Positions 2,776 through 57,850 of a stretch of 64,000 nt of DNA are shown here, one piece after another. Origin of the DNA: Conchocele bisecta (lineage: Eukaryota > Mollusca > Bivalvia > Lucinida > Thyasiridae); the NCBI GenBank assembly GCA_029237695.1, contig CM055269.1:31902956-31966955 (forward strand), read 5' to 3'. Position numbers and translations under genes: made by a program. Under the pieces are notes generated by a model. It was not told the origin of the DNA, ran no database searches, and saw nothing but the letters and a program-made list of their open reading frames with translations. Position 1 is the first letter of the stretch. Each line of letters begins with the position of its first letter.

Positions 2776-5700
2776 CTGAAACAGGAATACAGAAGTTTCA
2801 TCAACATTGAGTGTATGTAGGTGTGGCGTTCCATAGAGACAGACTTGGAAAAGTCGCGGGAATACTGGACGAGGCCTTCCGGCCTTCGTCCAGTATTCCC
2901 GCGACTTTTCCAACGTTGTTGGCGTTAACACTAAGGTAATGACGTTGTAGCTCTACAGTGTTGTACCTGGCTGTTGTCTGTGACAAGAATGGGACGCGTT
3001 CAGTAGCCCATTTCATCAACATTGCAAAGTATACTTTACTAGCAAAGTATACTTTGAGGGAATAATCATTTATTTTTCCTGAAATGCATTATTTCTTATA
3101 GAACTAACAACTGCATATAGTTCATGATTAAAAGTATGCAGAATTATTATACTGAATGTATTACATTATCACAGCCAAATTGGCTGTGATAATGTAATAA
3201 ATTCAGTATAATAAACATTAATAAATTTATCATAAAATTGAAAATTTCTCCCTCAAAGTATACTTTGCTACTAAAGTATACTTTGCAATGTTGATGAAAT
3301 AGGCTACTGAAACAGGAACACAGAAGTTATGGTAGACATATACGAGTACTGCATCTGTCATTACTTAACATTGAGCACTGGAACCGATATATCTTATATG
3401 TTTACTATTTAGTAGGGAGCCCCGCAGGGGGCGTATAATTCTTTTTTTTATTAATTCGTACCCACGAAACAACAATTCGTTCCCACGAATTAATAATTCG
3501 TTCCCTCAATTTAACAATAATACGTTCCCACAAAATAACAATTCGTTCCCAAGTCTGCTAATCACTGATGATTTTGGCTGTGATAATGTAATAAATTCAG
3601 TAAAATAATTCTGCATACTTTTAATCATCAAATATATGCAGTCGTTGGTTCTATATGAAATAATACATTTCGGGAAAAATAAATGATTACTCCCTCAAAG
3701 TACACTTTGCTAGATAAGTATATTTTGCAATTTTGATGAAATCGGCTACTGGTCTGGAAATGTCTCTAAACCAAAACACTCATGAACCTCCGCAAGATAA
3801 CAGCAGTCTACTATCTGCTCTAAGTTGTTGTTTGTTTTATTAGTGTTTAACGGCCTATCAACAGCTAAGGTCATGTAAGGCCGGGAAAACGGGTTCGATC
3901 CCATTTTAACCTGCTGCATTGGGGGGAAAATCTCAAAATCAGAACGGAATATTTACATCGAGAACAAATATATTCAGCCCTGAAATTAGAATAACCTGAC
4001 CTGGTGCCAGGTCCATACCACACCAAGTCACTTGGCCCCTTCCCCTAAAATAGGATTACGAATATCGTAATACTCACATAAGGGGTATAACCAGATTAAA
4101 CTGTCACATACCAAATGCCAAAGACGTATGTGAGGGCCAAACCAGGTCTCCAGTCGGGATTCCGTTAAGGATGAACCCCGATCGTTAAATTATCCATCGC
4201 GAGCTCCCACCTGCCACCCACCACAGGTGGAAGACTCGGACCTATGACACAAAAAAAATGCCTATTAAAAAAATCCCTTTACCCCACCCACTTGGTCTCG
4301 TACAGTACTATATGCTAATATAAAGGTGAGCATAAATAGCGCTATTATAGAAAGAGCCCTCTCTTTTCCGGCTGGCACAAACACAATAAACATCGATTAA
4401 ATGTATGAAATATGTCTCTGGCAATCGATAAAGGTATTAGGTGTGTGAATATACTCACTTCAAATCGCTGTTTCAAGTATTTATTGAGTTATTCGCGTTT
4501 TGATTACCCCATCCAAAGCGAAAGTTGCGTGTACGAAAGAATCTCACACATAATCGGAGGCCGTCCGGCTGGATTATCGGTCATATTTGGCCGATAGCTG
4601 ATCGCCAGCTCAAACTAAAGTCGTGCACCATGATCTATACATTAGAGACTCCAACCATACAAAGTTCGTCCAATTGTGATCGTTCGCCGATCTAAAAAAC
4701 ACTTTTCTATAATTTCGTTCATTATCTGGAACTGGGTCAATGCACTATCTTCCATAATACAACCACCGAAGCATCTATGTAAGAACATCTCTGATTGGTT
4801 AAACCTAAAAATAGACGCGAGGACTTTCCCTTTTCAGGGTTTCCGGAAGACATAATCTGATAGTACGCGAATCATGAATGAAAGTCAATAAAATTAGAAA
4901 AAAAAGTGTTTTTTAGATCGGCGAACGATCACAATTGGACGAACTTTGTATGGTTGGAATCTCTAATGTATATGATCATGGTGCACGACTTTAGTTTGAG
5001 CTGGCGATCAGCTATCGGTCAAATATGACCGATAATCCAGCCGGACGGCCTCCGATTCTGTGTGAGATTTTTACGTACACGCAAATTTCGCTTTGGATGG
5101 GGTATACAAAATGCGAATAACTGAATAAATGCTGGAAACAGCGATTTGAAGTGAGTATATTCACACACCTAATACCTTTATCGATTGCCAGAAACAGAAG
5201 TCATACATTTAATCGATGTTTATTGTGTTTGTGCGAGCCGGAAAAGAGAGGGCTTTTTCTATAATGGCCCTATTTATGCTCACCTTTATATTAGCATATG
5301 GTACTGTACGAGACCAAGTGGGTGGGGTAATGGGATTTTTTTTAATAGGCATTTTTTTTGTGTCATAGGTCCGAGTCTTCCACCTGTGCCACCCACCTGC
5401 TCTAAGTTGTGCTGCCGACGAACTTTTAGCTAGTACACACATTAAAGGTACATGCCCACTCAGAACGCACAACATGTTCTTTAGTAGTATATAGGGAGTC
5501 AAAATGATACCACCTACGGTGGTATCATTTCCACCCCTATATACTACTCCCACCACCCCCTAAAAATCAAAAAATGGTTAACGAGGAAATTGTCTCCCAC
5601 CAACCACGAAAAATCCAAAATTGGTGTCATAAATACATCATGTTGTTTTCACGCCCAATTGAACAGATAAAACAATAGTACTAAAAAGGATTTATTTTTG

Positions 5701-8700
5701 TCTCGTTGTCATAAATACATCATGTTTTTTTCACAACACGGTATTTTCCTCCTCCTCCAATATAGCTAATTGATTTCTACGATGTCGAATTGTAGTCCAA
5801 TTATATTGGTGTCTATCGCAATGGTATTTGCAACTACTATAGGCGGGGTAGTTGAAACAAGGTAGTTGAAAACCTCCTCAATTTTGCCACGGATTTTATG
5901 AATTTCTTCTTATAGGAGCGCAAAAATCCCGCCGACAACCATGTTTTCGACAACCACAATCTAGAGAAAACCAAAGCAAGCGTTTCTAGCACCAAAATAT
6001 AGATGTTTGTAGTACATTTTCCCGTCTACGATGGTCTCGATAGAATCTTTCGAATAGTTTCCCAACAGTACCAAAAATTGCCAAAAATTGTCGAAATGTT
6101 CTCGAACAACCAATTGAACATATGTTGTTGTACATGTATTCGACAACAAAGTTTGAAAAATGGCAACCACAACAACAACTTTCCAAGCGATGGGAATCCG
6201 TGCAGCGAAAAGTCTTTCCAAACATTTGCTCTTGGAGAACGCATACGAAAACAATCTTGTGTCCGACATTGGGCGCGTAGACTACCTCGAAAACCACGAG
6301 GGACAAACAAATTTGCAACCTCTAGAAGGTTTGCCAGCATTTGTAGACGATTTGTACGTGTTTGGGTACCTAGATAGAGAAGAATGCGTAGTAGTAGGAA
6401 ACAAAGCATCTTGCACAACTGGGGAAAAGCGGTCTGCGAAAAATTGTGTGGGTAGAATAGCAATTGCATCTAGAGAAACAATTGGAAGATAGCAAACCAC
6501 TGCACACTACAATCGTACATACAATTCGACGCGAGAAAGAGTTTGGAAATAGTTCCATTCGAAATACTGTAGAACGCATAGAAGAAGCAAGCGAAGGCAT
6601 AGCGAAACAAAGATGGGTAGAAATACACCAAGGGAGAGAACCCTTCGCACTGTTTGTAGCAAAAATAGCAGTGTCGGAAATAGCAATAGAAATTCTAGAA
6701 GAGCAGCTACAGGCTCTACAAAATAGATTGCGAGCAGCTGGAATGGAAATCTACTGTGTAGACTACACGAAAGACTTTTCTGGTACGCTAGATAGACCGG
6801 CTTTGGTAGAACATCTACAGAAAGAGAAAGATTTTGCAATGCAAGGAAAAAATAGAGGTTGGGGAGGAATCGACGAAAGTGCGGGAACAATTCTAGACAA
6901 CACAGGTACAGTAGGGAACCACGTTTGCTCTTGGATACAGACCAGAGACAACAGAACCACTAGAACAAAATTGTACAACAAGATAGTTTCCAATTTCGAG
7001 GCTGGAGAAGTACGAGAAAGCATTGGTGGGCATCTAGCAGACTACGCAGATTGCACCAACGACCATCTTCGGAAAACATTCCAACATGCGGATGTACAAC
7101 GAAGAGGTTGCACTAGAATCGAGGTTTCGGTCTACGGTTCTCTGGATATTTCCAAAGAGACAGCACTAGAGGTGCTTGCAGAAGCAGAAGAGACTGTTTC
7201 CCATACAAATCTATTTGTAGTACAACCTCCACACAAACAGTGGGAAAATCTAGCAAAATCCATCGATAGATGTTTTGTGCTAGGCGACAAACCATGTGGA
7301 GAGATCTTTGTAGCATGGTATGTGCACACAGGTACAGGTAGGATTGCTGGAGTTCGTGTACGACCAACTGCGGCCACTATTGCAGATCCTTCTAGATGGA
7401 GTAGAGCAATGGAGTGGGCAGCTGCAGATTTTGGTTTCCGAGCATGTCCGATCTTTCTAGCAGAGATTCTGTCTGCGGAAAATGGAGAAATAGAAATGTC
7501 TTCGCTGCGTTGCTACACAAAAGCAAAAGATTCTTCGACAATACTGTGTGGCAGCAAGCATCCGTGCGAAGTTTCGTGCTAGAGGTGTGGAAGTAGATCT
7601 TGTAGAGGTACTACCACCTACGGACTACGTATGTTGGAAGTGGAGAACCACAAAATGCCAGCTATAGGAGTGGAGAAATCCAAATTCGAAATTCTAGAAG
7701 TTCCGGAAATAGCAGCTACTAGGTGTGTTTCTACACTCTCTACATACAATAGAGCACAGAGACTGGTACAATTGCAAGATGCAGAGGAAGCAGAAATTTG
7801 GAGAAGGACAACTCTTGCAAGAGAGCTAGAAAACTACTCTAGAGAAGAGTACAATAGAAGAGCCATCGAGCTAGAAAAGCTTGCAGAAGCTGCCAAGGAA
7901 CATACAGAACACATTCGCAAAAAGGAAGAACTCCGTCTAGATGTTCGAGAAATGCTAGGAGACAAAAGAACGTGCAAAATATCGGAACTACCAGACGAAA
8001 ACGAAGTGTGGCACATTCTAGGTTTCCGTAGTAGACCCGGTGGCAGGTTTGGAGATAGTACTAGAGTAGTTTTCTACCAACAAAATGCCACAAAACATAT
8101 TTGTGTTTGGCCAACTAGAGGAATTTCCAAAGTTCTAGACAGTTGCACGGATGCATTCGAAATGGAGCGCGAAGAGCACCTAGAGAGGGAAAACATTCTG
8201 GCTACCACCACGTGTTTCTCTTCGAATTCTAGTACGTGCTGGGCAGGAGTTCCGGAGCCAAGGTAGGACCATCCGATGGAATCCCATAGAAGTTGTAGAA
8301 ACACCAAATCCAAGAGAGTTGGAGAGAATACAGAGATTGGCTAGAGAGATGGAAGAGTACGATTCTCAGAGAAGTTGTGTGTAGAGGAGACTTTCTTGCA
8401 ACAGAAAACGGAAACCTACAGAGACATAGATGTAGAAGCGGGTTTGTACGATTGTAGTAGGTACTGCGACACAATGTACAGAGGATGCAAAAGAACAATT
8501 CTATTTCTGGTGGCCACAAACGAAGATGGTACTCCAACAACAGGAGTGGAAATTCCTACCTACGGATTTCTCCTACAGAAAGAAATAGAGAGCATTGGTA
8601 GGCCTCTTCGGGAACTACAGAATCCACTTCGATGTAGAATGGGAGAGCCTCGCACTACACCAGCCAAGAGAAAATCTAGAACATTTGTAGTGTGTCCTGT

Positions 8701-11700
8701 AGATGGAAATAGAAACTAGAATCCACTTCGGTGCAGAATGGGGGAGCCTCGCACTACACCCAACAAGAAGAAATCCAGATGGTTTGTGGTATGTCCGGTG
8801 GCAGTTCTATCTACAAATCGAATTTCCCAATAGGGAGGGTTCGAATATTTCCCAAAGAGAGCTACTCCATGTAGAAAGGGTCGCCAGGGCGTATGGACTC
8901 GCCAAGAGTTTTCTTTTTTTCCTCCGGTTTGGTGGACTGTTTGGTGGGGTGCGCGAACTGGGCGTCGGGATCTCCATTCTTCCAGATTCTACAAGACTCT
9001 AGGGACACGAATGGGAACAGTGGTTTGCAGACCGCGTACGCCACCACGAGAACCCCGAGCCACCACTTCGCATTCTCTATGGTTTTCCAAATGTCGTGCA
9101 CCTCCCGCTCGTCTTTCTTCGGACACTCGGAATCGATAGTTTTTCCAAAACTGCTGGCATCGTCGGAAATCGCGTCCAACAACAGTCTACGTTCCAGCGC
9201 GTCCAATCGTCTCTCCATGTCGGACAGGCGCGTCGATTCTTCGAACGAGCTGGCGTTTCGTACATCTTCGAGTAGATCCCGAGGGAACTCGGTGGGACCA
9301 GGCGCGGTCGCCCTTTGTACTACGGGGGTAGGGGTTTCTTGTTCTTGGGAGGTTTCTTCGGGCTTTGTACTACGCTCTACATCGGCATCGTCCCATATTT
9401 TTCGAAGTCTGGCACTACCGATCCCGTACTTCTTCTTTGTTTCGTCGGCTGTAGCCTTCCCACGGGTGGAAATAATTTCTAGAATATTTTTCGGAGACAA
9501 GTAGGTTTTTGGCATGCTTGCAAACGCTTCTATCTAGATAGGGAACATTTGTCCAACATGGAATTCCCAAATTATTCGAAATGGTCGAAATACTTGTTCG
9601 CGGTGCTCGGATTGCTCGGATTGCGCACCAGATTGCTAGGATTGCGCGCCAGATTGCTCGGATTGCTCGCCAGGAAATCCAGTCCTCTCGGGAAGGTCGA
9701 AATGCCTGCTCGCGATTCCCAGGGGGCTCGGGCTCTCCATTTCTAGCCAACAAGGATAGCAAAAATAGAAATCCTGGAAGCAAACTGAGCACCCTGGAGA
9801 GCCCGAGCCCCCTGGGAATCGCGAGCAGGCATTTCGACCTTCCCGAGAGGACTGGATTTCCTGGCGAGCAATCCGAGCAATCTGGCGCGCAATCCTAGCA
9901 ATCTGGTGCGCAATCCGAGCAATCCGAGCACCGCGAACAAGTATTTCGACCATTTCGAATAATTTGGGAATTCCATGTTGGAAAAATGTTCCCTATCTAG
10001 ATAGAAGCGTTTGCAAGCATGCCAAAAACCTACTTGTCTCCGAAAAATATTCTAGAAATTATTTCCACCCGTGGGAAGGCTACAGCCGACGAAACAAGAA
10101 GAAGTACGGGATCGGTAGTGCCAGACTTCGAAAAATATGGGACGATGCCGATGTAGAGCGTAGTACAAAGCCCGAAGAAACCTCCCAAGAACAAGAAACC
10201 CCTACCCCCGTAGTACAAAGGGCGACCGCGCCTGGTCCCACCGAGTTCCCTCGGGATCTACTCGAAGATGTACGAAACGCCAGCTCGTTCGAAGAATCGA
10301 CGCGCCTGTCCGACATGGAGAGACGATTGGACGTGCTGGAACGTAGACTGTTGTTGGACGCGATTTCCGACGATGCCAGCAGTTTTGGAAAAACTATCGA
10401 TTCCGAGTGTCCGAAGAAAGACGAGCGGGAGGTGCACGACATTTGGAAAACCGTAGAGAATGCGAAGTGGTGGCTCGGGGTTCTCGTGGTGGCGTACGCG
10501 GTCTGCAAACCACTGTTCCCATTCGTGTCCCTAGAGTCTTGTAGAATCTGGAAGAATGGAGATCCCGACGCCCAGTTCGCGCAACCCACCAAACAGTCCA
10601 CCGAACCGGAGGAAAAAAAGAAAACTCCTAGCGAGTCCATACGCCCTGGCGACCCTTTCTACGTGGAGTAGCTCTCTTTGGGAAACATTCGAACCCTCCC
10701 TATTGGGAACTTCGATTTGTAGATAGAACTGCCACCGGACATACCACAAACCATCTGGATTTCTTCTTGTTGGGTGTAGTGCGAGGCTCCCCCATTCTGC
10801 ACCAAGTGGATTCTAGTTTCTATTTCCATCTACAGGACACACTACAAATGTTCTAGATTTTCTCTTGGCTGGTGTAGTGCGAGGCTCTCCCATTCTACAT
10901 CGAAGTGGATTCTGTAGTTCCCGAAGAGGCCTACCAATGCTCTCTATTTCTTTCTGTAGGAAAAATCCGTAGGTAGGAATTTCCACTCCTGTTGTTGGAG
11001 TACCATCTTCGTTTGTGGCCACCAGAAATAGAATTGTTCTTTTGCATCCTCTGTACATTGTGTCGCAGTACCTACTACAATCGTACAAACCCGCTTCTAC
11101 ATCTATGTCTCTGTAGGTTTCCGTTTTCTGTTGCAAGAAAGTCTCCTCTACACACAACTTCTCTGTAGAATCGTACTCTTCCATCTCTCTAGCCAATCTC
11201 TGTATTCTCTCCAACTCTCTTGGATTTGGTGTTTCTACAACTTCTATGGGATTCCATCGGATGGTCCTACCTTGGCTCCGGAACTCCTGCCCAGCACGTA
11301 CTAGAATTCGAAGAGAAACACGTGGTGGTAGCCAGAATGTTTCCCTCTCTAGGTGCTCTTCGCGCTCCATTTCGAATGCATCCGTGCAACTGTCTAGAAC
11401 TTTGGAAATTCCTCTAGTTGGCCAAACACAAATATGTTTTGTGGCATTTTGTTGGTAGAAAACTACTCTAGTACTATCTCCAAACCTGCCACCGGGTCTA
11501 CTACGGAAACCTAGAATGTGCCACACTTCGTTTTCGTCTGGTAGTTCCGATATTTTGCACGTTCTTTTGTCTCCTAGCATTTCTCGAACATCTAGACGGA
11601 GTTCTTCCTTTTTGCGAATGTGTTCTGTATGTTCCTTGGCAGCTTCTGCAAGCTTTTCTAGCTCGATGGCTCTTCTATTGTACTCTTCTCTAGAGTAGTT

Positions 11701-14700
11701 TTCTAGCTCTCTTGCAAGAGTTGTCCTTCTCCAAATTTCTGCTTCATCTGCATCTTGCAATTGTACCAGTCTCTGTGCTCTATTGTATGTAGAGAGTGTA
11801 GAAACACACCTAGTAGCTGCTATTTCCGGAACTTCTAGAATTTCGAATTTGGATTTCTCCACTCCTATAGCGTGGCATTTTGTGGTTCTCCACTTCCAAC
11901 ATACGTAGTCCGTAGGTGGTAGTACCTCTACAAGATCTACTTCCACACCTCTAGCACGAACTTCGCACGGATGCTTGCTGCCACACAGTATTGTCGAAGA
12001 ATCTTTTGCTTTTGTGTAGCAACGCAGCGGAGACATTTCTATTTCTCCATTTTCCGCAGACAGAATCTCTGCTAGAAAGATCGGACATGCTCGGAAACCA
12101 AAATCTGCAGCTGCCCACTCCATTGCTCTACTCCATCTAGAAGGATCTGCAATAGTGGCCGCAGTTGGTCGTACACGAACTCCAGCAATCCTACCTGTAC
12201 CTGTGTGCACATACCATGCTACAAAGATCTCTCCACATGGTTTGTCGCCTAGCACAAAACATCTATCGATGGATTTTGCTAGATTTTCCCACTGTTTGTG
12301 TGGAGGTTGTACTACAAATAGATTTGTATGGGAAACAGTCTCTTCTGCTTCTGCAAGCACCTCTAGTGCTGTCTCTTTGGAAATATCCGGAGAACCGTAG
12401 ACCGAAACCTCGATTCTAGTGCAACCTCTTCGTTGTACATCCGCATGTTGGAATGTTTTCCGAAGATGGTCGTTGGTGCAATCTGCGTAGTCTGCTAGAT
12501 GCCCACCAATGCTTTCTCGTACTTCTCCAGCCTCGAAATTGGAAACTACCTTGTTGTACAATTTTGTTCTAGTGGTTCTGTTGTCTCTGGTCTGTATCCA
12601 AGAGCAAACGTGGTTCCCTATGTACCTGTGTTGTCTAGAATTGTTCCCGCACTTTCGTCGATTCCTCCCCAACCTCTATTTTTTCCTTGCATTGCAAAAT
12701 CTTTCTCTTTCTGTAGATGTTCTACCAAAGCCGGTCTATCTAGCGTACCAGAAAAGTCTTTCGTGTAGTCTACACAGTAGATTTCCATTCCAGCTGCTCG
12801 CAATCTATTTTGTAGAGCCTGTAGCTGCTCTTCTAGAATTTCTATTGCTATTTCCGACACTGCTATTTTTGCTACAAACAGTGCGAAGGGTTCTCTCCCT
12901 TGGTGTATTTCTACCCATCTTTGTTTCGCTATGCCTTCGCTTGCTTCTTCTATGCGTTCTACAGTATTTCGAATGGAACTATTTCCAAACTCTTTCTCGC
13001 GTCGAATTGTATGTACGATTGTAGTGTGCAGTGGTTTGCTATCCTTCCCAATTGTTTCTCTAGATGCAATTGCTATTCTACCCACACAATTTTTCGCAGA
13101 CCCCTTTTCCCCAGTTTGTGCAAGATGCTTTGTTTCCTACTACTACGCATTCTTCTCTATCTAGGTACCCAAACACGTACACATCGTCTACAAATGCTGG
13201 CAAACCTTCTAGAGGTTGCAAATTTGTTTGTCCCTCGTGGTTTTCGAGGTAGTCTACGCGCCCAATGTCGGACACAAGATTGTTTTCGTATGCGTTCTCC
13301 AAGAGCAAATGCTTGGAAAGACTTTTCGCTGCACGGATTCCCATCGCTTGGAAAGTTGTTGTTGTGGTTGCCATTTTTCAAACTTTGTTGTCGAATACAT
13401 GTACAACAACATATGTTCAATTGGTTGTTCGAGAACATTTCGACAATTTTTGGCAATTTTTGGTACTGTTGGGAAACTATTCGAAAGATTCTATCGAGAC
13501 CATCGTAGACGGGAAAATGTACTACAAACATCTAGATTTTGGTGCTAGAAACGCTTGCTTTGGTTTTCTCTAGATTGTGGTTGTCGAAAACAAGGTTGTC
13601 GGCGGGATTTTTGCGCTCCTATAAGTACTATTGTTTTATCTGTTCAATTGGATGTGAAAACAACATGATGTATTTATGACACCAATTTTGGATTTTTCGT
13701 GGTTGGTGGGAGACAATTTTCTCGTTAACCATTTTTTGATTTTTAGGGGGTGGTGGGAGTAGTATATAGGGGTGGAAATGATACCACCGTAGGTGGTATC
13801 ATTTTGACTCCCTATATACTACTTCTTTATATTAGAGACATCATCGGAGCCATTTTCTTGCAAAATAAAAATAAAAAATAACCGAGTTTCCTTAAAATGT
13901 TAACGGACATTACTATTTACTATCTGTATTTATTTTGTTTGATGTCCAATGATTATACTTTATAAACTGTCGAAAATTAGTATAAATAATTAAAAAATAT
14001 CGTGCCTTATTTGCATATGAAAATAGCAGGATACCACCGTGCGTCACTATCAGTAAAATAAATAATGTATTATTAAATGATAATATTTGTATAGCGGGCA
14101 CTCGTAATGTTTAGAACTGGTGGAATAGCGACACAATTATACACTTATTTAATTCCTATAAAGAACATGTTGTGCCTAATAAGTGGGCATGTACTTTTAA
14201 ATCTAAAAATATTTAATTGTAAGTACAGTGCAACCTCTCTGAACCGGACACATAGAACAGTTAGTTGACAACTGAGTTTTGCTACCTTTGATAGGTTTCA
14301 TTGACATTTGTTTCAGATGATAATATTTCATTGACATTTGTTTCAGATGATAATATAAGGTTTGATCATGTCCAGCCGTGTGCAAACGTTCGCTGTGGCC
14401 CGAGGGAACTGTTTGAACCCAAGGCCGCAGACCGCGGGTTCAAACAGTTCCCGAGGACCACAGCAAAGTTTGCACACGGCTGGACATGATCAAACGTTAT
14501 TGTTACATTACCAACAAAAAACTGATGTAATTCGAGCATTATATTCAGTATTTTCAGTACTTTTATAAATCGACCCATTCACGTAGATAATTTTCGGTAT
14601 TCATATTCCGGGGCCGCGTCATGAACGTCATGAAGTAGTGACGTCATGAAGGCACTTCCGCGTAGTGACGTCATGAAGGCACTTGGTCTACGCGCGGCCC

Positions 14701-34800: not shown

Positions 34801-37751
34801 TATGATTCCACCCCACCCCCTCCAGCATATCATAGCAATCACATACGCATAGCTTGTTTAGTGCGATACTGTTGTTTACAGCTTCTACTCAGAAATAATT
34901 TAAATTTTCAGCTGCGAGCCTATCGCAGCTTATGTAGCCGGTTCTCAAAATACAGTCAGATATCACGGCGCTATTTTTCTTGTGGCGCGAATGTATACAT
35001 CGTGTATCTAGGTCATTGTTAACGATTCGTTTTATGCTATTTTACATTTCGTTTTTATTAGAATGTATATCTTTGGTATATAATTAATTGAAGAAAAACC
35101 AATGGAACCTCAGATTTAGCCGTTCATTTATCACAAATAAAAGGGACTATTTTGGTCGCGCATTAATGGTGTGTAAACCCGAATCACACCTGTCTGGCAC
35201 CTGTCTGGATTTTTCATTCACAACTACGGAGTGTACACAAATGCATAAAACAACAATATAACCACAGGTGTTTGAAGAGTAAATCCGGATATGGAATTAC
35301 CACCCTTATCGCATCGCCGTATTTCGCCGATATTGATTTCGAAAATCAGTCATATTTTCCTTAAATGATGTCGAAAATTGATAAAAATATACTGTTGCCA
35401 CTCATTTGAACCGTGTCGTCTAGATGGTTCACTCATTTCAATCGTCGCGTCGGCATGTTTCGAATGAGTGGTAATAGCGTACACTTTCACTTACACTATA
35501 ATTGAGCCCGGATATGGAATTACCACACTTATCGCATAGCCGTATTTCGCCGATATTTATTTCGAAAATCAGTCATATTTCCGTTAAATGTTGTCGAAAA
35601 TTGATAACAATTGCAGAGCTCATGCGGATGTGTATGTAATGCATAAAACACAAACGCTAAGCCTTACTGGATTCTTCCTGTTTCTATACAGCTCCTTCCC
35701 CTCTCCACATACAAAATATGTCGAGTGTTATACAGTTTCCCATAACACCATTTACTAAAATTACTCTATTTGAAATATTTAAAGGAGAATATACTAAAAC
35801 ACTGTTTACAACCCATTTCAGTTGGGCTCGCAGCTCAGTACTTTCAGCACTTTGATTCATCCCGTTTTGAGACTGCTAAACCTGCAAACTTAATATAGAA
35901 GCATTATATATACGCTTATTTAGTACCTATATGCCAAATATCAACTCCTTATGTAATCCTGTGGCATATGTACGTAAATGTATAACCGACTGCAGTGGAA
36001 TGTTAGACCGAGCTGTCACAATCGCGGCGAAAGCTCTGTAGATGGCAGTTTTGGACATACATGGGGTATTGCATTCATGTATCTCCTACTGATATGTTAG
36101 TTATTGATCTTTTTCAAGCTGCATCAATAGCTTCCTTAGAGTTATGACTAAGCACCCTCTGTCACCAACCTTCTATGCTATGGAAGAAACTGTCCTCTTC
36201 TCGGCGACCACCTTATTTTACAGCGATCGCTTGCTAGTCATGTGACCATGCATACATAGTATCCATGTATAACTTGCAAATTCATCCTGGTGCCATATGT
36301 ATATTACACAGATGATCATTTACCCAAATCCATGTTTGTACACCTTTTAGATAGTGACAATGGCGTAGTCATGATGAGAACACTATTGTTGACCTGGTCA
36401 AAAGTTCACTCTGACAATGGGCATTGTCATACGTGTAACATATCAATATATAGAATAAACACACTTGTGTATACATACCACGAATATGCTTATTTATATA
36501 TACGGATATATCTACCAATGCGTGTCTGGACCGCATTTGTGTACATCTATGCGAAGCATGTTTGAAAATGATGTAGGACATATTGATTGGAACTCAAAAA
36601 TAATTCATACAAATGAACTGTGAATATATTTGGAAGATCTGGTTTCGACAACATGTGTTTTTAAAATGTGATAGATTGACGGTTCCATCATGTGATCGGG
36701 ACAACATGACACCAGTTTGCAAGTCATATATTTTGTAATCACGTGAGTAACACTTATTGTAAAATTTAATTATTAAACGGCCATTGTTATTGTGTTATCA
36801 TGTTCAAACATTCCGGGGAGGAGTCATTGACGGGGCTGTTTCTGTCCGTAGATTAACATTCAATACCTTCACCTGGGTTATGTTATCCTTTTGGCTGGCA
36901 TAAACATCTGACACCACAAAATAAAAGTCATAAACATGTAAAAAGTAGTTATTTCATTCCTCCGTGTTAAGCCAATAAAAATAGACAAATGCCCGTCTTC
37001 AAAATGTTAAAGGAGCATAACATGTAGCTATAGTTTATTATTGGCACAGCATGTTGAACACCTGATGACCGACACATCCTTCTTCCAAGGTTGAGCTTAT
37101 CACACGTGTGTCAATGACCAATAATCTGGATTAAACAGAATCAAAACGTACATTGTATTTAGTTACTTCATCACTCTACCAAGACTATTACTTTTATCAC
37201 TGCTATATGCACAAAATGTGTCATTTTAAACCTACCAAATTTAACTTATCTTGGCGGCCATTCTCACATGCTATATGATCGTCTTTTAGCACTACTCATT
37301 GCTGGCTTTTATAACACACTATTTACAAATAATATCAAGCAGAATGGTGTTGAAAAATTAGTTCTACATCACAATAGTGTAAAATATATTTTTGATCGAG
37401 AGGCCATTTTTAATCCAAGATGGCGCCCTCTATGGATTGGACAACATAGCGAATTTATTTTCTGATAACTGCTTCCATACACTATCCAAAAACGTATAAT
37501 TTACAAATATAAAAACAATCATAACACAATTATGTAGCAAAAGCCCACACATATGCAGCATTATTGACCATAATGGTGGCCATTTTGAATTCAAGATGGC
37601 GGCCAAGATAGTGATGGAAAAAAATGGTACCTATTTGTTTTTTGCTTTACAATGTCTCAGAATGAAAATAAACACAAAATGTAAGACTATAGGAACAATT
37701 TCAGCAAATGCATATTTTTTCACTTTCTGACACCGACTATAAGCTGCATCA
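34801..37751. other. Intergenic DNA without recognised gene
   Basis: A direct repeat of about 105 bp (35281-35385 and 35508-35610, from CCGGATATGGAATTACCAC) lies here. GGCGGCCAT words recur at 37253 and about 37570-37605. No coding signal or RNA gene was seen. Confidence 0.55.
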
Positions 37752-38040
37752 GTAGTATATAGGGAGTCAGTTCGTTACCGCGAAGTGTGGGGGAAGAATT
37801 GAAAGCAGTGGGTAGCCCCATAGGTACCAAAAATAGTAAAATTTCCTGTTAATTTAAAGCGAAATAAATACAACCCACAGTAAAACAAAATGATACCACC
37901 AAAGTTTGTAAAATGTGTCCCCGATTTGCAGCGGTTTCGGCTACCCAACGAAATAGTAAGTCGATTTGCAAGGGTTTCGGCTACCTGTTTCAGCTACCCA
38001 ACGAAATAGTAAGTCGATATACGCGGGAGGTCTCCCATAT
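37752..38040. repeat. Element 2 left TIR
   Basis: Inverted match to 46471-46760. Its inner half has two copies of a unit with CAACGAAATAGTAAGTCGAT, and GTTTCGGCTAC occurs several times. It shares AAAATGATACCACC with the element 1 hairpin. Confidence 0.85.
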
Positions 38041-38084
38041 AGAAAGCGGAGATTTGGTCGAGGCTACCAAGGTTTCGGCTACTT

Positions 38085-38280
38085 TTGCAGTTTTTTGGAA
38101 ATCGAGAAGTGGACAACATCGGGAAGCCACTGTGCGAACTACAGAATCTGCTTCGGTGTAGAATGGGGGGAGCCTCGCACTACACCCAACAAGAAAAAAT
38201 TCAGATGGTTTGTGGTATGTCCGGTGGCAGTTCTAGCTACCAATCGAAGTTCCCAATAGGGGAGGGTTCGGATACTTTTT
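38085..38280 (+). pseudogene. Remnant of the long-ORF 3' end in element 2
   Basis: CTACAGAATCTGCTTCGGTG ... GAGCCTCGCACTACACC ... GGTTTGTGGTATGTCCGGTG matches 8600-8860 of element 1, in the same position relative to the HTH/TM gene. Only the tail is left, so the long ORF has been lost from this copy, apparently between the TIR and here. Confidence 0.7.
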
Positions 38281-38291
38281 TTCAAAAATGG

Positions 38292-38963
38292 CTACTGCAT
38301 GTAGAACGGGTCGCGACTACCAGAGTGCTGGTGTACGGAGTCGCTAGTTTCGTTTTTCCCATTCGGCGTACCGGACTGTTTTGCGGAGTGCACGAACTGG
38401 GCGTCGGGGTCTGTTTTCTTCTTCCAGAGGCTATGGGCCTCTAGAGACACGAATGGGAACAGTGGTTTGCAAACCGCGTACACCACCGCAAATACCCCCA
38501 GCGACCACTTTGCATTATCTACGGTTCTCCAGATGTCGTGCACCTCCCGCTCGTCTTTCTTCGGACACTCGGAATCGGCATCGCCGGAAATCGCGTCCAA
38601 CAGCCTGCGTTCCAGAGCGTCCAACCGGTTCTCCAAACGTCTCTCCATGTCGGACAGGTGCGTCGACTCTTCGAACGAGCTGGTGTTTCGCGCATCTTCT
38701 AGTAGAGCCGTGGGGAACTCGGTAGGGCCCGCAAAACCAGGCGCGGTCACCCTGTGTACTACGGGGGTAGGGGTTTCTTGTTGTTCTGGGGTTTCTTGTT
38801 CTTCGGGTTTTGTACTACGTTCCGCATCGACGGCGTCCCATATTCTTCGAAGGCGAGTGGTACCGATTCCAAATTTCTTCTTCGTATTGTCTACAGACTC
38901 TATACCCCGAAGATTACGGATATCTTCTATATCTTGTTCGGACAAATTTTGCTTTGGTGGCAT
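38292..38963 (-). CDS. HTH-like / coiled-coil / membrane-segment protein of element 2 (copy a)
   Basis: 223 residues from ATG 38963 (MPPKQNLSEQDIEDIRNLRG); an ATG six codons upstream at 38981 is possible, but the chosen one aligns with the element 1 protein. Order: HTH-like block with KKKFGIGTTRLRRIWD; Pro/Thr/Gln linker with PEEQETPEQQETPTPVV; heptad stretch SDMERRLENRLDALERRLLD; hydrophobic segment WSLGVFAVVYAVCKPLFPFV; charged tail. Its similarity to 8862-9515 runs end to end, with the coiled coil extended by four residues and other small indels, so the two elements share this gene by descent. The frame is open, unlike most other genes here, which hints at selection or recent activity. Function unknown. 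Confidence 0.75.
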   Translation of the reverse strand: MPPKQNLSEQDIEDIRNLRGIESVDNTKKKFGIGTTRLRRIWDAVDAERSTKPEEQETPEQQETPTPVVHRVTAPGFAGPTEFPTALLEDARNTSSFEESTHLSDMERRLENRLDALERRLLDAISGDADSECPKKDEREVHDIWRTVDNAKWSLGVFAVVYAVCKPLFPFVSLEAHSLWKKKTDPDAQFVHSAKQSGTPNGKNETSDSVHQHSGSRDPFYMQ

Positions 38964-39024
38964 ATTTTTTTGTAGGCACATACAAATATAGTTTGCCCAA
39001 TGTTCAACATGATTTGTCTAGGTA

Positions 39025-39230
39025 AAACCAGGCATACTAGCACCACAACTAGGCATACTAGTACCACAACTAGGCATACTCTTACAAGGCCTAGGCTTAC
39101 TCGTACCATGCCTAGGCTTACTCGTACCACGACTAGGCATACTAGCACCATAACTAGGCATACTAGTACCACAACTAGGCATACTAGTACCACACCTAGA
39201 CATACCAGCACCACGACTAGGCGTACGAGC
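39025..39230. repeat. 21-bp tandem array inside element 2
   Basis: About ten copies of a unit containing CTAGGCATACTAGTACCAC, between divergent HTH genes. Both strands are open by chance of the 21-bp period. The position and the repeated half-palindromic CTAG/ACTAGT words would suit binding sites (iterons), but a plain minisatellite is equally possible. Confidence 0.8.
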
Positions 39231-39295
39231 ACCTTGGGAAAGACGGGCATTTTTGAGCATTTCGAACAAAGTTTCTGCCCTCATAACAATTAAAA

Positions 39296-39636
39296 ATGAC
39301 AAAGTCCTACTTATCGAATAAAAATATTGAAGAAATTGTTTCGGCGCGTGCCTGCGAACGCTATTAAGAAAAAGTATGGGATCGGAAGTGCGAGGCTTAA
39401 AAAGCTGTGGAAAGATAAAACCACCTCTGGATTGAATTTACCTTTTTTTCTAAGGAGGTGTAAACGATCGGTTGATTGGGGGGAAATTATTGATGATAAC
39501 CTCAAATATGGGGTTTGCACAATCGTTAAAACCAAATTTAGAACAAGTTAACGAAGAAGATTCTTCAACTATATCTTGGACCTATTCAGCTGTGGCTCTA
39601 GCAGGTTTGCTTGTTGGTGTGTTCGAATTACCATAA
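39296..39636 (+). pseudogene. HTH/membrane-segment protein, element 2 copy b (frameshifted)
   Basis: Starts MTKSYLSNKNIEEIVSARA, stops early at about 39365, then in another frame reads IKKKYGIGSARLKKLWKDK. Near the end, in a further frame, a hydrophobic AVALAGLLVGVFELP precedes TAA 39634. Its N-terminus is closer to the element 1 protein than to copy a. The region between lacks the coiled coil. Broken by at least two frame changes. Confidence 0.6.
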
Positions 39637-39881
39637 TAGAAAAGACCCCTGTAATTGGCGTGACCCTAATAAACTGCATTATGACAGATGGATTAATTCA
39701 TCATCTTTTCCATGTAGAGCTTTTTAAACTGTTTTATAATACTTCTGTAAGGGTTTCCAGCATTGAATCGTGGTAAATCTCAACAGGTTTTGCTTTCACG
39801 GTTTCCATAAATATATTTAATATTATTATAATTATTTATTTCCAATTGTGAATTAATGTTAGACATTTATATATATATACC

Positions 39882-40067
39882 ATGCCTAAATCGGTTATTA
39901 CGCAGGAAGCGCTGATAGATATTTTGCAGTCCCGTGGAATTGTTCCTGCCTATGAAGTTAGAAAGAAGCACCATATTGGTCCCAAACGCCTTACAGATCT
40001 GTGGAAATATGATAAATTTATCATGGGACTTTCTAGAGATAATTGGCCAAAAACCCGGAAACCGTGA
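39882..40067 (+). CDS. Short HTH-like protein, element 2 copy c
   Basis: 61 residues, MPKSVITQEALIDILQSRG then VRKKHHIGPKRLTDLWKYD. This is the HTH-like block alone, without coiled coil or membrane segment. It is preceded by an AT-rich stretch (39801-39880). Either a genuine stand-alone DNA-binding protein or the 5' end of a broken longer gene. It lies tail to tail with PolB, whose 3' end is at 40148. Confidence 0.5.
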   Translation: MPKSVITQEALIDILQSRGIVPAYEVRKKHHIGPKRLTDLWKYDKFIMGLSRDNWPKTRKP

Positions 40068-40147
40068 TAAGCCCCCGTTGGAAGACCTAAGGTGTGTAAG
40101 ATACCTTCAAAAATTGAACAGGTTGCATAATTTTATTTAATGAAAGT

Positions 40148-43100
40148 TTAAAGGGGTTCTGTATGTATCCCATCTTCTAAAACCCTTCTCTTGTCATAGT
40201 AAGCGGACAGTCCTAATTTATTTTGGGTATATGTTTTCATAACACCATTTCTCATTCTAAACCCTCTGTGTGTTCCTCTATCCGTTCCAACCTGGTGTAG
40301 GGCCTCCATATACCTTCTCGATGTAAGACTATTTTGCCTGGCAGATAACCCCTTTGCTGAATGTTTTAATTCATTATTTTTAATTTTTTCAACCAAATAG
40401 CATTTACTGGATAGAGCTATTGCACGATCTCCTTGGAACTCCGTTTTGAATAGCCCTGGTTCTCTATTACTCCATTTATCCCACGCTAGCCACTCTTTTT
40501 TATGTTTTTGGAAATCCTCCACCATTTCTGGTTTTATCATTTTTCCTTTCCTAACTCTCCACCCTTCATACTAACCCCCATATACAAACTATCAGTATCC
40601 ATCTGTACTAGTTTTCAAAAATCTGCTCTATCTACGTATTTGTCCATAAAATCATAATAAAATTCTAACATTCTTTGTTTTGCATATTGGTATACAGCAA
40701 TCCCACAGTGAAATGGACGAGTCATATTGGCATTTACATTTCTTGAGGATATTTCGTAAGAATCTCCTATTTCCTCTAAATCATCGAAATACGCTGATCT
40801 TAAAGCTTTGTCCACACATTTTTCATCTTTTGTATACGTTGTGTTGAGGTGTTTTTCGGGGGATTCTATCATTTTCCCGCAACATGAGTTACCTAATAGT
40901 TTCATTATATCTGCAATTGGGGACTTGGAGCTATCAACATCTCCGGATCTCCTGGCTGAAGTAACTTCTTTAACAAACCATTCAAAGGGCTTACCTGCTG
41001 TATAATTTATTACTCTGTAAATCCCTGTAATTTCTAAACCCTGCTTCAAATACCATTTTAATAATGGGGCAAATAGTAATACTTTTTGAGGAGACATTGC
41101 ACCTACTAGTTTTCTACCATCTCCTCTTGCACGGTTAGTTTCTTGTAAATACTGTAACATCTTCTCTGGAACTTCCTCCTCCTCTACAATCCTATTTATA
41201 AATATTGGGGACATTTCCGAAAACTTCTCTTTTAAACTGCTGGGAACCTCTATATCTACTTCAGCAAAGCCAAACCACTTACCATTTAAAACCGCCTTGG
41301 AAAACTTATTTATTTTAATAGAGTCGTGAGGGCTGCTTTCCTCGTGTAGTTTCCCTTCGCCACATGGCATATGTTTATTTAATGTTGATAAATATAGGGC
41401 GTTTGCATCAAAACCAAGTACGGCTTCGCAAAGCTTTCCATTTCCATCTGAGGCTGACCTAATTCTCGTAACACCTGCTTCTACATATCTTGTAAACACA
41501 ATTGACGGACCTCCAACTAATGCTCCTTTTAACATTTCATATATTTCCTCACCAGGGGCATACAGTGGTGGACATATCGCGTCTGCTATCTTACTCTCTT
41601 TGGTTTGATAAGGTTTTATATGGTTTTTTATCGTTCCTCTGAGAATGTATTGTAAAGCAACTCCTGGTAGGGTAACTGCATCTTTAAACATATCTATACC
41701 TTTTGTTTGATAAAATTTTGTCATTTTTCCGATAGCTTCTAAAAAGGGGCCAACATCCAAGTTGCTATAGTATTTTAACCAGTCCTTTGAAAGACTTCAT
41801 ATTTAATCTGTTATAAATGTTGTTGCACTCTTCCAACTGTTTTTTGGTTATCGCTTTATTTGGAGTTAATTTATTTGTCCAATTTTTAAGTGGTGGTAAA
41901 CCCTCATACGCTAGTTTATCGGGAGAATCAAACCATTCATAGGGGAAGAAGGATTTTTTCACCTTCGCATCCATATGCCTTAACCCATCTCGTAATCGAT
42001 ACCAGGGGCAAGATACAATTTTACATCTAAAAACCAAATAAATGCTGGGGTAAATAGAAAAATGGTTGTATTAGCTTTCTTACCTACTAGTACCGTAGAG
42101 GTTTTGTCCGTTAAAAACGTCAACTAAATGCTTCTTTATTAAATTAAGATCGTAATTACTGGAATTGAACCCAATTACTGGGACTTGGGAAATCCATCGG
42201 GTGATTTCTCGCTCCCCCCCCCGCTGAGAAGTGTAAGATACTCCATGTCTGCAGGGTACCCATATGTTTGTTATTGCTACTCCCCACGGCCTCTCGGATA
42301 TTATTCTCCCCCCTCCTCTTACATCTTCCATAAATAGGGTTACTAATTGTTTTGGAGAAGTATCACATATGTGAGTTATACTGTTGGATAGAGTATCTCC
42401 TATACTAACACTTATTTGGACATGTTCGTTTATAAACTCTAGATCTTTAGTTGGGTTACGCTTTTCTTTACTTCCGTCTAAATATGCCTCAAAATCGTAT
42501 ACTATATGATACGGGTAAATCACTGTAGGAGGCTTTTCGAGTTCCTTTACATCCTCAGGTTTACAAATTGCATCATACTCGCATTCAAAAATAGTTACTA
42601 ATTTACACTTACCCTCAATTGCTTCGTCTCTCTCGTTGGATCTTCTAAGCTTATTTTTATAATCTTTACAATGTTTGGGACACCCGTGCCAATAACAGCC
42701 GTGAAATTGTATAAACCGTATCAGTCATAGGGCAATACCCATCCACTGGGGCTCCCGCAATTATTCTTTCTCCACCGTGGCCACATACTGCAGTGTGAAT
42801 GTGGGGTCCCTGGCAAAGATTTTATCCAACTAATTGATTTCTTGCTACAACTGGGTTTTGGATAGAAAGCTCTTTCGAACGCTGATACTGGTCGATCTAT
42901 TTTTCCCCTTTACACGATACTTTGGTTAATCCCTTCATACAAGTCAATGCGTGCCGGGTTAAATTACTGACCTTTGTAAGCGTTGTTTGCAGTCGAAGCA
43001 ACAATAATTGTTTTCAGCGGCTTTATTCATATCTGTAATAAGGAAGGCGTGATCGTTATAGATGCCTATTTTCATCTTTTTATTACCAATATTGTCGTAA

Positions 43101-43909
43101 TGAACGGCTACTTTTCTTAAATACCATGTTCCCTCTTCTGTAGGTTCGTATGCATCAATACCTATTTTAAAACACTCTTCTATTTTCTTGATATCTCCAA
43201 ATAATATGGGTCCTTCTGGTTTCGGTAATTTATGGGTTTTACAAAACTGTAAATATTGTTGCTGGAGTTCTTTGGTCAACGTTAAACATCTATCGGCCCT
43301 AAGCTTCGATGTGTGGAGCGCCAAGCATCTGAACAAACAAAGATCATCATTGAAACTATCCAGGGGCTTCATCCCTTTCTTATAACGCAACCACTCTGGC
43401 ATTCGACCTCCTGCCACTTTTTCGGATTTCATTTCAGCATCACCTTTGGGGATTTCATACCCCTTTAAAGCTGTTCCATATACTATTTTAACGCTGACAC
43501 CCATCCATCTTACAAACCTCCATTTTGTGCTTGGCCTATCTATTTTATCTATGTTTAATCTATGCTCTTCTTGTTTATTAATCCACTCTTCAACCTCATC
43601 GTAACCCCTTAACCACGGACTTCCGGATAAATTTTTATAAAATACCAACGTTGTCGGCTTTCCTCTTGCGTCTCTCTCCTCTTGGTGAATTAATTTGTAA
43701 GAAAAAGAGAATCTTAGGTAAAAACTGTCAGTTAACAAAGGCTCTAACTCGCCCATTATCCTTTTGCTGTTATTTATTTGAAGTTTTCTTTTCATGGTTA
43801 TTGTAGTTATCCTACGCCCTTTTACTATTTCTTTTTCTTTTTGTTTATAATCTTCTAATATTTCGCTACCTTCCTCTGTTAACTGTTGTAATAAACGCGC
43901 TTTCTGCAC
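40148..43909 (-). pseudogene. Family B DNA polymerase, protein-primed type (frameshifted)
   Basis: Roughly 1,250 codons in pieces: 43909-42959, about 42955-42530 in mixed frames, 42523-42080, 42037-41765, 41760-40615, then 40612-40527 and 40540-40148. Seen in order: an N-terminal region with LCLFRCLALH and a later CCFDC; a CGHGG and WHGC segment around 42675-42790; ExoI VYDFEAYL (about 42490); ExoII GFNSSNYDLNLIKKHL; ExoIII region NLDVGPF; polymerase motif A FDANALYLS (about 41410); motif B KLLGNSCCGK (about 40890); motif C MDTDSLYMG (about 40600); C-terminal KHSAKGLSARQN and LSAYYDKRRVLEDGI. All catalytic acids are still encoded, but frameshifts near 42040, 41785 and 40615 and others inactivate it. 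The C-terminal motif resembles PolB genes of mobile elements in cnidarian and molluscan genomes (recollection, not a search). Confidence 0.85.
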
Positions 43910-44014
43910 TCGTTTTTTTAGGTTTGCCGATGTTCCTGCTTCTAAGACGAGGGAAGCCCATCTTAGCTATATTCTGTGCTATCTTTTCTATATTCTTTTT
44001 TTCCACCTTAAATA

Positions 44015-44026
44015 CCCCCCCCCCCC

Positions 44027-44071
<45 letters not shown>
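44015..44071. repeat. C homopolymer run of more than 50 bases
   Basis: Nearly pure C with one A at 44027. It lies upstream of the PolB N-terminus and probably expanded after integration, or is an assembly artefact; it makes a false glycine-rich ORF on the minus strand. Confidence 0.9.
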
Positions 44072-44072
<1 letters not shown>

Positions 44073-44185
44073 CACAAATTGCACGAGCCATTCTTTTCAT
44101 AAATTCATCATTTTTTTCCTTATTTATTAGTGTTAGTTAACCCCCCTTTCCCTTAACCTGTTTGAAAAAGGTGTACCCATTCTTA

Positions 44186-44320
44186 TTAAATTCTGAACCT
44201 TAATTCCCGAATCCTAGGGGAAGAACTTTTAGATGGATTTACACCCCTTTTATCGCTAATCCTTGTGCGAGTTAACTTAGGGCGAGGCGCTCTCGTAACT
44301 TGTTTACGTATATCTGTCAT
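44186..44320 (-). CDS. Small basic protein upstream of PolB
   Basis: 44 residues from ATG 44320 (MTDIRKQVTRAPRPKLTRTR), rich in Arg, Lys and Ser, stop at 44186. It lies on the PolB strand before it and could be a broken N-terminal piece of PolB, a separate basic protein, or chance. I do not recognise it. Confidence 0.35.
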   Translation of the reverse strand: MTDIRKQVTRAPRPKLTRTRISDKRGVNPSKSSSPRIRELRFRI

Positions 44321-44639
44321 TTTTCTAATCGTGGAAATTTATTGTTTCATATAAATACCTATATGGCTTATGTTCAATAGGGTGTTTGTTCATCTTTGAC
44401 AATTAATTAATTATAACACCTCATACTACAGTATAGAAGACACATATTTTGTCGGAGCTAGGGGGCTTTCTGCTAGTTTTCTCGTGTTCAATAGGGTGTA
44501 TTAAAACATTCCCACAGAATAAAATAGGGCACAGTTCGTACGCTACCCAAAGCCATCTCGCTCCGTTTTCGATATGGACTAGAAAAATTATACAGAGAGG
44601 CCATTCCTATATCTATCTATCTCTGTATTATGCTGCACA

Positions 44640-46470: not shown

Positions 46471-46760
46471 ATATGGGAGACCTCCCGCGTATATCGACTT
46501 ACTATTTCGTTGGGTAGCTGAAACAGGTAGCCGAAACCCTTGCAAATCAACTTACTATTTCGTTGGGTAGCCGAAACCGCTGCAAATCGGGGACACATTT
46601 TACAAACTTTGGTGGTATCATTTTGTTTTACTGTGGGTTGTATTTATTTCGCTTTAAATTAACAGGAAATTTTACTATTTTTGGTACCTATGGGGCTACC
46701 CACTGCTTTCAATTATTCCCCCACACTTCGCGGTAACGAACTGACTCCCTATATACCACT
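46471..46760. repeat. Element 2 right TIR
   Basis: Inverted copy of 37752-38040, ending GACTCCCTATATACCACT and followed by GCATC. Confidence 0.85.
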
Positions 46761-47535
46761 GCATCTGTTGATATAATGCGTTGTAGTGATGATAACTTAG
46801 ACGGATTTGGTATAGTGTATGATATACCGATCGGCTATAAGTATTCCAAAAGTACAGATATATATATAAATGGGCAGCGCTCTGTGAAAACCAGCCTTGA
46901 TGACAAAATGTTTAATTTGCACTTTTTTACATTTTTTTTATGCGGACACCTTTCAAAGACAATATGGTGAAAAGAAAATGCAAATATGTTTCATAGTTTT
47001 TGTTTTATCTCACTTTTTGTAGCACCATGTGAATCACGCAAGGAAAAAAAAGTAACGTCATCGAGAAAATGACGTTATTGAAACGCTGACGTTTGTTCAA
47101 TGCAAAACAACAGCCTACAGTAGAAATGCGTGTTCATAGACTCATTGACTGTGCTTGCTGTAAACTGTATTTGCTGATAAGTTGCACTAAATATATCTAC
47201 AATTGTTAGTACGTATACTATCAAACATTGAACAGAATAAAACTATGATATGTACATGTAGTGAACAAACCAAACGCACCACTATCATGTTAAATCTATA
47301 ATTACTAAATATTAAAACATGTTTGGCCCAGTGTCAACATGATGCGATATGCCAGGAGCTGCGTAATTAGCACTCCCATAATTTGTATCTGTGATACGAT
47401 TATTTTTCTGACAATTTCCAAATTGTATTTTATGTTGATTTTCGAAATATTCGACGGTGAACCAGTAAATCAAATGAATTAAGACCTAGGCGCAGTTCTA
47501 ACCGTGGCTAATTTTATCCAGAATACGTGTCACAG
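46761..47535. other. Non-coding DNA without recognised content
   Basis: AT-rich; no TIR pair, tandem array or protein motif seen. Confidence 0.6.
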
Positions 47536-57840: not shown

Positions 57841-57850
57841 AACATATTAT

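Follow-up and report, generated by a model that had tools for sequence, protein, structure and literature searches.

The window, a stretch of 64,000 nucleotides of contig CM055269.1 from the bivalve Conchocele bisecta, carries an 8.3-kb palindromic mobile element (EL1) inserted in a MITE-like repeat, together with a PolB-bearing relative (element 2, EL2). The features are as follows.

5442..5482, plus strand: left terminal repeat of the MITE-like repeat split by EL1
5478..5482, plus strand: target-site duplication TCTTT left of EL1 (also from the empty-site comparison)
5483..13823, no strand: EL1 (window self-comparison and arm alignment)
5483..5548, plus strand: 66-nt terminal hairpin, left end of EL1 (−41.2 kcal/mol, RNA parameters)
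5483..9739, plus strand: left arm (99.4% identity to the right arm, 4024 aligned columns)
about 5681..5908, plus strand: 228-bp segment of the left arm only, absent from the right arm
6190..8719, plus strand: long ORF, left copy (tblastn to P0001; small indels break the frame; N-terminal domain Rep_trans-like)
8862..9515, minus strand: HTH/TM ORF, left arm (open, 217 aa; HTH and TM are labels of the first-pass annotation)
9604..9673, plus strand: 9/21-bp minisatellite adjoining the axis, left arm
9740..9794, plus strand: single-copy axis loop, 55 bp (L018 and L019 have a near-identical one)
9795..13823, minus strand: right arm (arm alignment)
9861..9930, plus strand: mirrored 9/21-bp minisatellite, right arm
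10019..10671, plus strand: HTH/TM ORF, right arm (frameshifted near its start; boundaries mirrored from the left arm)
10813..13344, minus strand: long ORF, right copy (open over 10813–12672; frame broken upstream)
13758..13823, minus strand: 66-nt terminal hairpin, right end of EL1
13824..13828, plus strand: target-site duplication TCTTT right of EL1
13829..14200, plus strand: remainder of the split MITE-like repeat (right terminal repeat 14159–14200)
37751..46760, no strand: EL2, with 290-bp TIRs
37746–37750 and 46761–46765: EL2 target-site duplication GCATC
about 44979–46551: reverse-transcriptase-like frames of EL2 (labelled by eye)

Self-comparison of the window and alignment of the arms returned the same palindrome, coordinates and 55-bp spacer as the first-pass annotation. 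The inverted match runs over some 4 kb, which excludes chance: 4000 of the 4024 aligned bases are equal (24 substitutions), the paired fraction of the element is 0.97, and 10 length differences separate the arms (one of 228 bp and nine indels of 1–2 bp). The 228-bp segment is probably ancestral and lost from the right arm, since several canonical ends match EL1 unbroken across element position 201–252. Both arms hold the long ORF and the HTH/TM ORF, as had been described, and the frame breaks are not the same in the two arms. The 66-nt terminal hairpin is also present in four other elements (L013, L024, L003 and L007) and absent from EL2, L018 and L023; as L018 and L023 are palindromes lacking it, the hairpin is not required, and a parvovirus-like rolling-hairpin origin at this site was rejected.

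EL1 is mobile as a unit, as its 5-bp target duplication and the match to an empty site attest, in line with its earlier description as an integrated mobile element. Its 18-bp end occurs in the window at positions 5483, 13806 and 37751, and with one mismatch at 46743 (0.03 occurrences expected by chance), and 4051 times genome-wide. Among the 39 facing end pairs found in one sampled stretch, 22 span 13.6–20.3 kb. An exact 5-bp target duplication flanks 35 of the 36 evaluable elements sampled on contig C1 (3 of 39 not being evaluable), both short and long, L013, L018, L023 and L034/35 included. The base preceding it was A, T or C in 18 elements, and the survey ruled against reading the EL1 and EL2 duplications as 6 bp with a shared T.

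Of 42 listed Polinton-type ends, 10 agree with the terminal 116–252 bp of EL1 at 94% or more and the others at 73–92%. Polinton type was assigned to the long elements read at length, i.e. 4 of the 22. Profile matches comprised PolB (PF03175, E = 3.9e-10, in L030), the rve integrase (PF00665, 4.4e-9, in L026) and an A32-type ATPase (PF04665, 1.3e-9, in L029), while the double-jelly-roll capsid profile (PF16903) reached E = 2.7e-4 in the long relatives, with a score of 21 below the cut-off of 24. Three of the four long relatives match the PolB, integrase, ATPase and MCP probes (the integrase probe derives from L026 and the ATPase and MCP probes from L029, where these matches are to self), and the fourth, the incompletely read L036/37, matches the ATPase and MCP probes and parts of PolB. 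PolB, rve integrase, A32-type ATPase and TIRs are what these longer elements share with Polintons/Mavericks, from which they differ in a target duplication of 5 bp instead of 6 bp; the latter length is typical of Polintons/Mavericks but not defining. EL1, in contrast, is mirrored and lacks PolB, integrase and ATPase (no PolB or integrase match in EL1 at E 1e-5). It derives from a Polinton/Maverick-type element as a palindromic, mobile form and, as no PolB was found in it, is not a full member.

The gene order that EL1 was said to have in common with EL2 is borne out, the inner arms being about 77% identical (EL1 8718–9446 against EL2 38143–38891, 77%; EL1 8581–8700 against EL2 38105–38225, 77%), and the end of EL1 matches EL2 over the first 18–20 bp and one short internal motif only. 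Dependence of EL1 on EL2, as first proposed, is unlikely as the main point, given that the EL1 ends match Polinton-type ends and that one 293-aa probe found no integrase in EL2 at E 1e-5.

Mirrored arms occupy at least 75% of the length in 4 of the 39 end pairs and at least 60% in 7, the mirrored fraction being 1.00 in L023, 0.97 in EL1, 0.94 in L013 and 0.90 in L018. Among these mirrored pairs, L034/35 has the PolB end duplicated as a palindrome, with PolB in both arms (4.1 kb, 98.0% identity) and integrase probe matches in both pieces. The earlier statement that such a derivative has no polymerase thus stands for EL1, where PolB has no match, and does not hold in general. Palindromic copies were found to recur with target duplications of their own, which answers part of the check first proposed; EL1 is one of a recurring class of palindromic Polinton-related elements that insert as units. 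The axis of EL1 itself is present in the best 40 of 331 candidates, EL1 among them, and at the 39 other best-scored places arm, loop and arm were matched on both strands (93–98%). Within strongly mirrored elements the arms are about 97–99% alike (divergence 0.6–3.3%). At the axis, arm identity is 99.7% in EL1 and 98.5% in L018, against 88.7–90.2% between the two elements, and each arm pair forms a sister pair in this region (support 0.997–0.998). Outside the central 1.9–2.0 kb no match of at least 250 bp at E 1e-20 joins EL1 and L018; their outer arms (the long ORF in EL1, tandem repeats in L018) are unlike on both sides together. The halves of elements of this class thus seem to have been copied from one another. 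Loops measure 55–59, 134 or 595 bp and, with the PolB-end palindrome, make up several distinct axes, and terminal-repeat lengths grade continuously from tens of bp up to the full palindrome.

The HTH/TM ORF had no Pfam match above cut-off and one homologue among 587 candidates scored; dN/dS between EL1 and L018 is 0.38–0.47. Among 73 loci, many of them element ends only, the long ORF was found just in L013, also a palindrome, and the non-mirrored parent with both long ORF and PolB that had been envisaged was not among them. The long ORF matched no Pfam family above cut-off, it and its alignment had no relative in IMG/VR, and a sequence search against the PDB gave no convincing match. Foldseek against viral models returned three matches at E <= 0.001, all of low TM score, one of them annotated as an uncharacterized Synechococcus phage protein. 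In its predicted fold the long ORF may weakly resemble bacterial Rep_trans nicking enzymes (a weak structural score in the comparison to the TBP-like Rep_trans fold), to which conserved residues add: Y271 (numbered in P0086), R318 and E320 in 27 of 27 aligned sequences, K273 and T256 in 26 of 27, and D204, D208, D68 and D69 in 26 of 26. The D, DxxxD, YxK and RxE residues, which in Rep_trans comprise the catalytic tyrosine and the metal-binding acids, follow in the same order as there, an equivalence drawn from order and spacing, not from superposed coordinates. Conservation does not extend to Rep_trans positions Y178, G180 and E196, and at R189 K stands in 27 of 27. As 0 of 33 aligned family members matched PF02486 at E <= 1, the long ORF is not filed as a Rep_trans member. 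Rep_trans proteins are rolling-circle initiators (PMC4797284, PMC13107129, both in the parts available), and the available part of the latter source presents the family as seemingly confined to bacteria, with a distant archaeal relative described. The likeness thus lies in a possible TBP-like fold and the shared residue order, while the long ORF differs in being carried by an animal mobile element and in matching no PF02486.

We consider it probable that EL1 arose by fold-back, integrated as a unit, is inherited as a palindrome and has in its long ORF a candidate nicking function. While a linear element replicated outside the chromosome, the new strand would have switched back on itself or on the displaced complementary strand, within the minisatellite-bearing stretch upstream of the HTH gene, to give a molecule with one end in two copies and a short loop. 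Insertion of such palindromic molecules as units is what the survey shows, a separate 5-bp target duplication marking each one; the enzyme is most likely the integrase encoded by canonical Polintons of the same genome, to which the shared ends and the target-duplication length point. The patterns of arm similarity further suggest that the palindrome is passed on as a palindrome: a single strand would fold into a hairpin, one arm templating the other in each round, so that the arms would start out identical and begin to differ only once inserted. Finally, the product of the long ORF may nick the ends in the manner of a Rep_trans enzyme. More tentatively, these elements could be an animal lineage of permanent palindromic replicons with a Rep_trans-like nicking enzyme of their own and an integrase borrowed from resident Polintons.

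The snap-back reading first given for EL1 keeps its core, as EL1 looks like an inverted duplication of one end, here that of a Polinton-type element, and gives way on another point, as there is a recurring class and not one accident. That snap-back recurs de novo, leaving dead-end palindromes whose non-mirrored parents have a fold-back hot spot in common (a short inverted repeat and the minisatellite upstream of the HTH gene), with arms alike because the palindromes are young, is unlikely, though not negligible. The several distinct axes imply formation more than once, the axes of HTH-side palindromes lie at or adjoin the minisatellite zone, and the continuous range of terminal-repeat lengths would also be expected; however, the precise axis of EL1 recurs at the 39 other places (again within the best 40 of 331) as well as in L018 and L019, and the elements read at length (L009–L037) include no non-mirrored carrier of the loop. 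L019 carries it and is partly mirrored, but has the look of a palindrome of L018 type that has suffered deletions.

Growth of the terminal repeats through recombination or repair by the host, as in Foldback-type elements and with no link to protein-primed replication, is improbable. Foldback and Galileo elements resemble EL1 in very long, variable TIRs that occupy most of the element, and the wide variation of terminal-repeat length here suits such growth. In the part of PMC3573991 available, Galileo is a P-superfamily element with TIRs of 18 to 1,250 bp that lengthen by inverted duplication of internal sequence, whereas the arms of EL1 measure 4.0–4.3 kb, bear genes and end in Polinton-type termini. 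Arms with whole genes reach a loop of 55–134 bp in EL1, L018 and L023, and the host family encodes PolB and integrase, its 5-bp duplication and ends being those of the Polinton-type family.

Gene conversion is known to act between the arms of palindromes in other systems. Chromosomal homogenization of the arms after insertion, of the kind seen in sex-chromosome palindromes, would likewise give arms that agree within an element and differ from one element to another; we nevertheless think it very improbable, as the arm divergence (0.6–3.3%) falls inside the range of the short terminal repeats of non-palindromic relatives (0 to about 19%, repeats 13–20 kb apart), as expected from time since insertion, and small indels differ freely between the EL1 arms. 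Long palindromes are a recognized artefact class, but an assembly or library fold-back, or a local inverted duplication, can be practically dismissed on the 5-bp duplication within the MITE-like repeat, the unlike flanks, the substitutions and length differences between the arms and the recurrence of the structure at independent insertion sites, which also speak against a mirror unique to this locus.

Among other systems, the kalilo deletion derivative of a protein-primed linear plasmid, reportedly described by Vierula and Bertrand in 1992, and a hairpin plasmid derived from pGKL1 resemble EL1 in that part of a protein-primed linear replicon forms a hairpin or head-to-head duplex, but are extrachromosomal, whereas EL1 is integrated with a target duplication and its axis is present at many places. 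Adenovirus and AAV have snap-back or symmetric defective genomes that share with EL1 a mirrored terminal segment and two origins; to our knowledge, these are defective genomes and not a dispersed integrated class, and snap-back molecules of protein-primed replicons are, as far as we know, mainly defective or laboratory forms. Among the papers listed from the literature available to us, mostly non-subscription, none concerns palindromic Polintons, which does not prove that no account exists.

The elements described here would thus be natural, repeated and integrated snap-back structures in an animal-like genome, with dozens, possibly hundreds, of records. If the proposed course is correct, each cycle passes through a self-complementary hairpin and both arms change in step, a testable prediction of a hairpin replication intermediate that bears on how Polintons replicate. 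Arm-to-arm divergence could date insertions much as LTR divergence does, and a Rep_trans-like enzyme in animal elements, if confirmed, would extend this enzyme class to eukaryotes.

The mobile element EL1 is a near-perfect palindrome. The first-pass annotation had proposed two arms meeting at a short spacer, and this was borne out by self-comparison and by alignment of the arms, which are identical at 4000 of 4024 aligned columns. Its parts are as follows:

5483-13823, EL1, near-perfect palindrome (self-comparison and arm alignment)
5483-9739, left arm
9740-9794, loop
9795-13823, right arm

The arms differ in length by one segment of 228 bp and nine indels of 1-2 bp. The left arm has this segment; the right arm lacks it and looks to have lost it, since several canonical ends align unbroken with EL1 over its outer part. 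The ORFs of EL1 itself are disrupted by indels differing between the two arms, the pattern expected after insertion. The element is flanked on each side by TCTTT and lies within a MITE-like repeat, whose left terminal repeat it splits; joined minus one copy of the target-site duplication (TSD), the flanks of EL1 match the other terminal repeat for three more bases and then diverge. A separate fold-back repeat (4222-5388; arms of ~487 bp at 95%, centre ~195 bp) lies ~95 bp to the left, and by eye L013, another locus with the EL1 end, seems inserted in a further copy of it, recognised by similarity to about 4233-4268 of the window.

The 18-bp end that EL1 has in common with element 2 and Polinton-type relatives occurs 2031 times in forward and 2020 times in reverse orientation in the 1.89-Gb genome, where the reversed-pattern control gave 0 matches. 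Judging from protein matches, the host is probably a marine invertebrate. Our family sample, the first 100 ends among the matches listed (contig C1 up to 37.4 Mb), comprised 39 facing pairs (22 of 13.6-20.3 kb, one of 10.8 kb and 16 of 1.2-8.8 kb) and 22 single ends. All 16 short elements were read whole, the 10.8-kb element in two pieces and four long ones in pieces; the other 18 long elements were compared over their first and last 2.5 kb, and single ends were counted by terminus, L007 alone being viewed with 1.5-kb flanks. No mirroring was detected in the 22 long elements across the stretch compared, the best terminal match ranging from at most 58 bp (L048/049) to 1079 bp. Genes were searched for in the four long elements read in pieces: three matched probes for integrase, ATPase, capsid protein and PolB. 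The fourth, of incomplete sequence, gave matches for ATPase, for capsid protein and for parts of PolB. Pfam backs the integrase, ATPase and PolB, the capsid match falling below cut-off. We call these long elements Polinton-type.

An exact 5-bp TSD was found in 35 of 36 evaluable sampled elements, namely 15/16 short elements (in the exception, L024, one base differs), 17/18 long elements compared by ends (L038/039 was not evaluable), L025/27 and L028/30 (2/2), and L034/35; L031/33 and L036/37, as sequences without flanks, lie outside this count. The base preceding the TSD is A, T or C, so the duplication is of 5 bp, and this variable base rules out 6 bp.

The first-pass annotation had also suggested looking for palindromic copies elsewhere with TSDs of their own, and such copies exist: 4 of the 39 sampled pairs were at least 0.75 mirrored and 7 at least 0.60 (EL1 lies outside the sample). 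Mirrored-arm fractions were:

L023, 1.00; EL1, 0.97; L013, 0.94; L018, 0.90
L034/35, about 0.76; L024, 0.68; L011, 0.63; L015, 0.63
L017, 0.49; L014, 0.47; L019, 0.35
seven PolB-bearing short elements, 0.06-0.23; element 2, 0.06

In L034/35 it is the PolB end that is mirrored: each arm holds parts of PolB, and the integrase probe matches both pieces of the element. L011 looks like an L018 from which a deletion has taken out the axis together with one HTH copy; L015 looks like L023 after a similar deletion. The partly mirrored L024 (2.55 kb) matches the integrase probe at E ≤ 1e-5 and perhaps derives from another part of a parent.

The axis of EL1 is widespread in the genome. A 335-bp probe spanning it gave 331 candidates; each of the best 40 of these (including EL1), distributed over 18 contigs, matches the probe on both strands from one arm through the loop into the other, across about 293-335 of the probe's bases, the 39 places other than EL1 at 93-98%. 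These figures describe the centre at the 40 scored places, mirroring out to the element ends lying beyond the probe. L018 and L019 are not within the best 40; their loops and that of EL1 are nearly identical, and in all three a 9/21-bp minisatellite adjoins the axis. Loop repeats are of 21 bp in L013 and 10/20 bp in L023, and element 2 carries 9.9 copies of a 21-bp unit (about 39026-39233) directly upstream of its HTH ORF. Template switching could plausibly take place in such a zone of repeats.

Arms are alike within elements. Beside the axis, identity is 99.7% within EL1, 98.5% within L018 and 88.7-90.2% between the two, with sister-pair support for the arms of 0.998 (EL1) and 0.997 (L018). 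Beyond the central 1.9-2.0 kb, EL1 and L018 have no match of at least 250 bp at E 1e-20: the outer arms of EL1 hold the long ORF and Polinton-type ends, those of L018 tandem repeats and a different TIR. Because these outer arms differ between the elements but agree on both sides of each, the two arms are replaced jointly. The pattern is explained if one arm is copied from the other, and would equally arise if different parents snapped back independently at the same axis. The HTH C-terminal region of EL1 is closer to that of L013 (about 92%) than to that of L018 (about 86%), so modules are swapped between lineages; sister support for the arms here is 0.981 in EL1, 1.000 in L013 and 0.692 in L018. 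The dN/dS of the HTH ORF is 0.38-0.47 between EL1 and L018 and mostly 0.2-0.6 over pairs, with some close pairs at 0.8-1.1.

Ten of the 42 Polinton-type ends listed match the EL1 end at ≥94% over 116-252 bp, and the rest at 73-92%. Similarity between element 2 and the EL1 TIR is confined to the initial 18-20 bp plus a single short motif, and the integrase probe found no match in element 2. Among 73 loci, many of them ends only, none proved to be a non-mirrored parent carrying the long ORF. A 66-nt terminal hairpin is present at some 18-bp termini (L003 and L007 from position 1501; the ends of L024) and missing at others.

Element 2 also contains nested reverse-transcriptase-like reading frames (44979-46551, labelled by eye), a long poly-C run (44015-44071) that may mark an assembly or sequencing limit, and two more short frames (39300-40060) that by eye seem to resemble the HTH ORF start. 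Elsewhere in the window lie a large tandem array (16198-18112; its units agree at about 70-78% across many offsets) and further arrays near 55012-55833 and 57180-59507.

We infer that the palindromes arose when an extrachromosomal element folded back while replicating, probably by protein priming, and that they would have been integrated by a Polinton integrase, a hairpin intermediate allowing one arm to be copied from the other.
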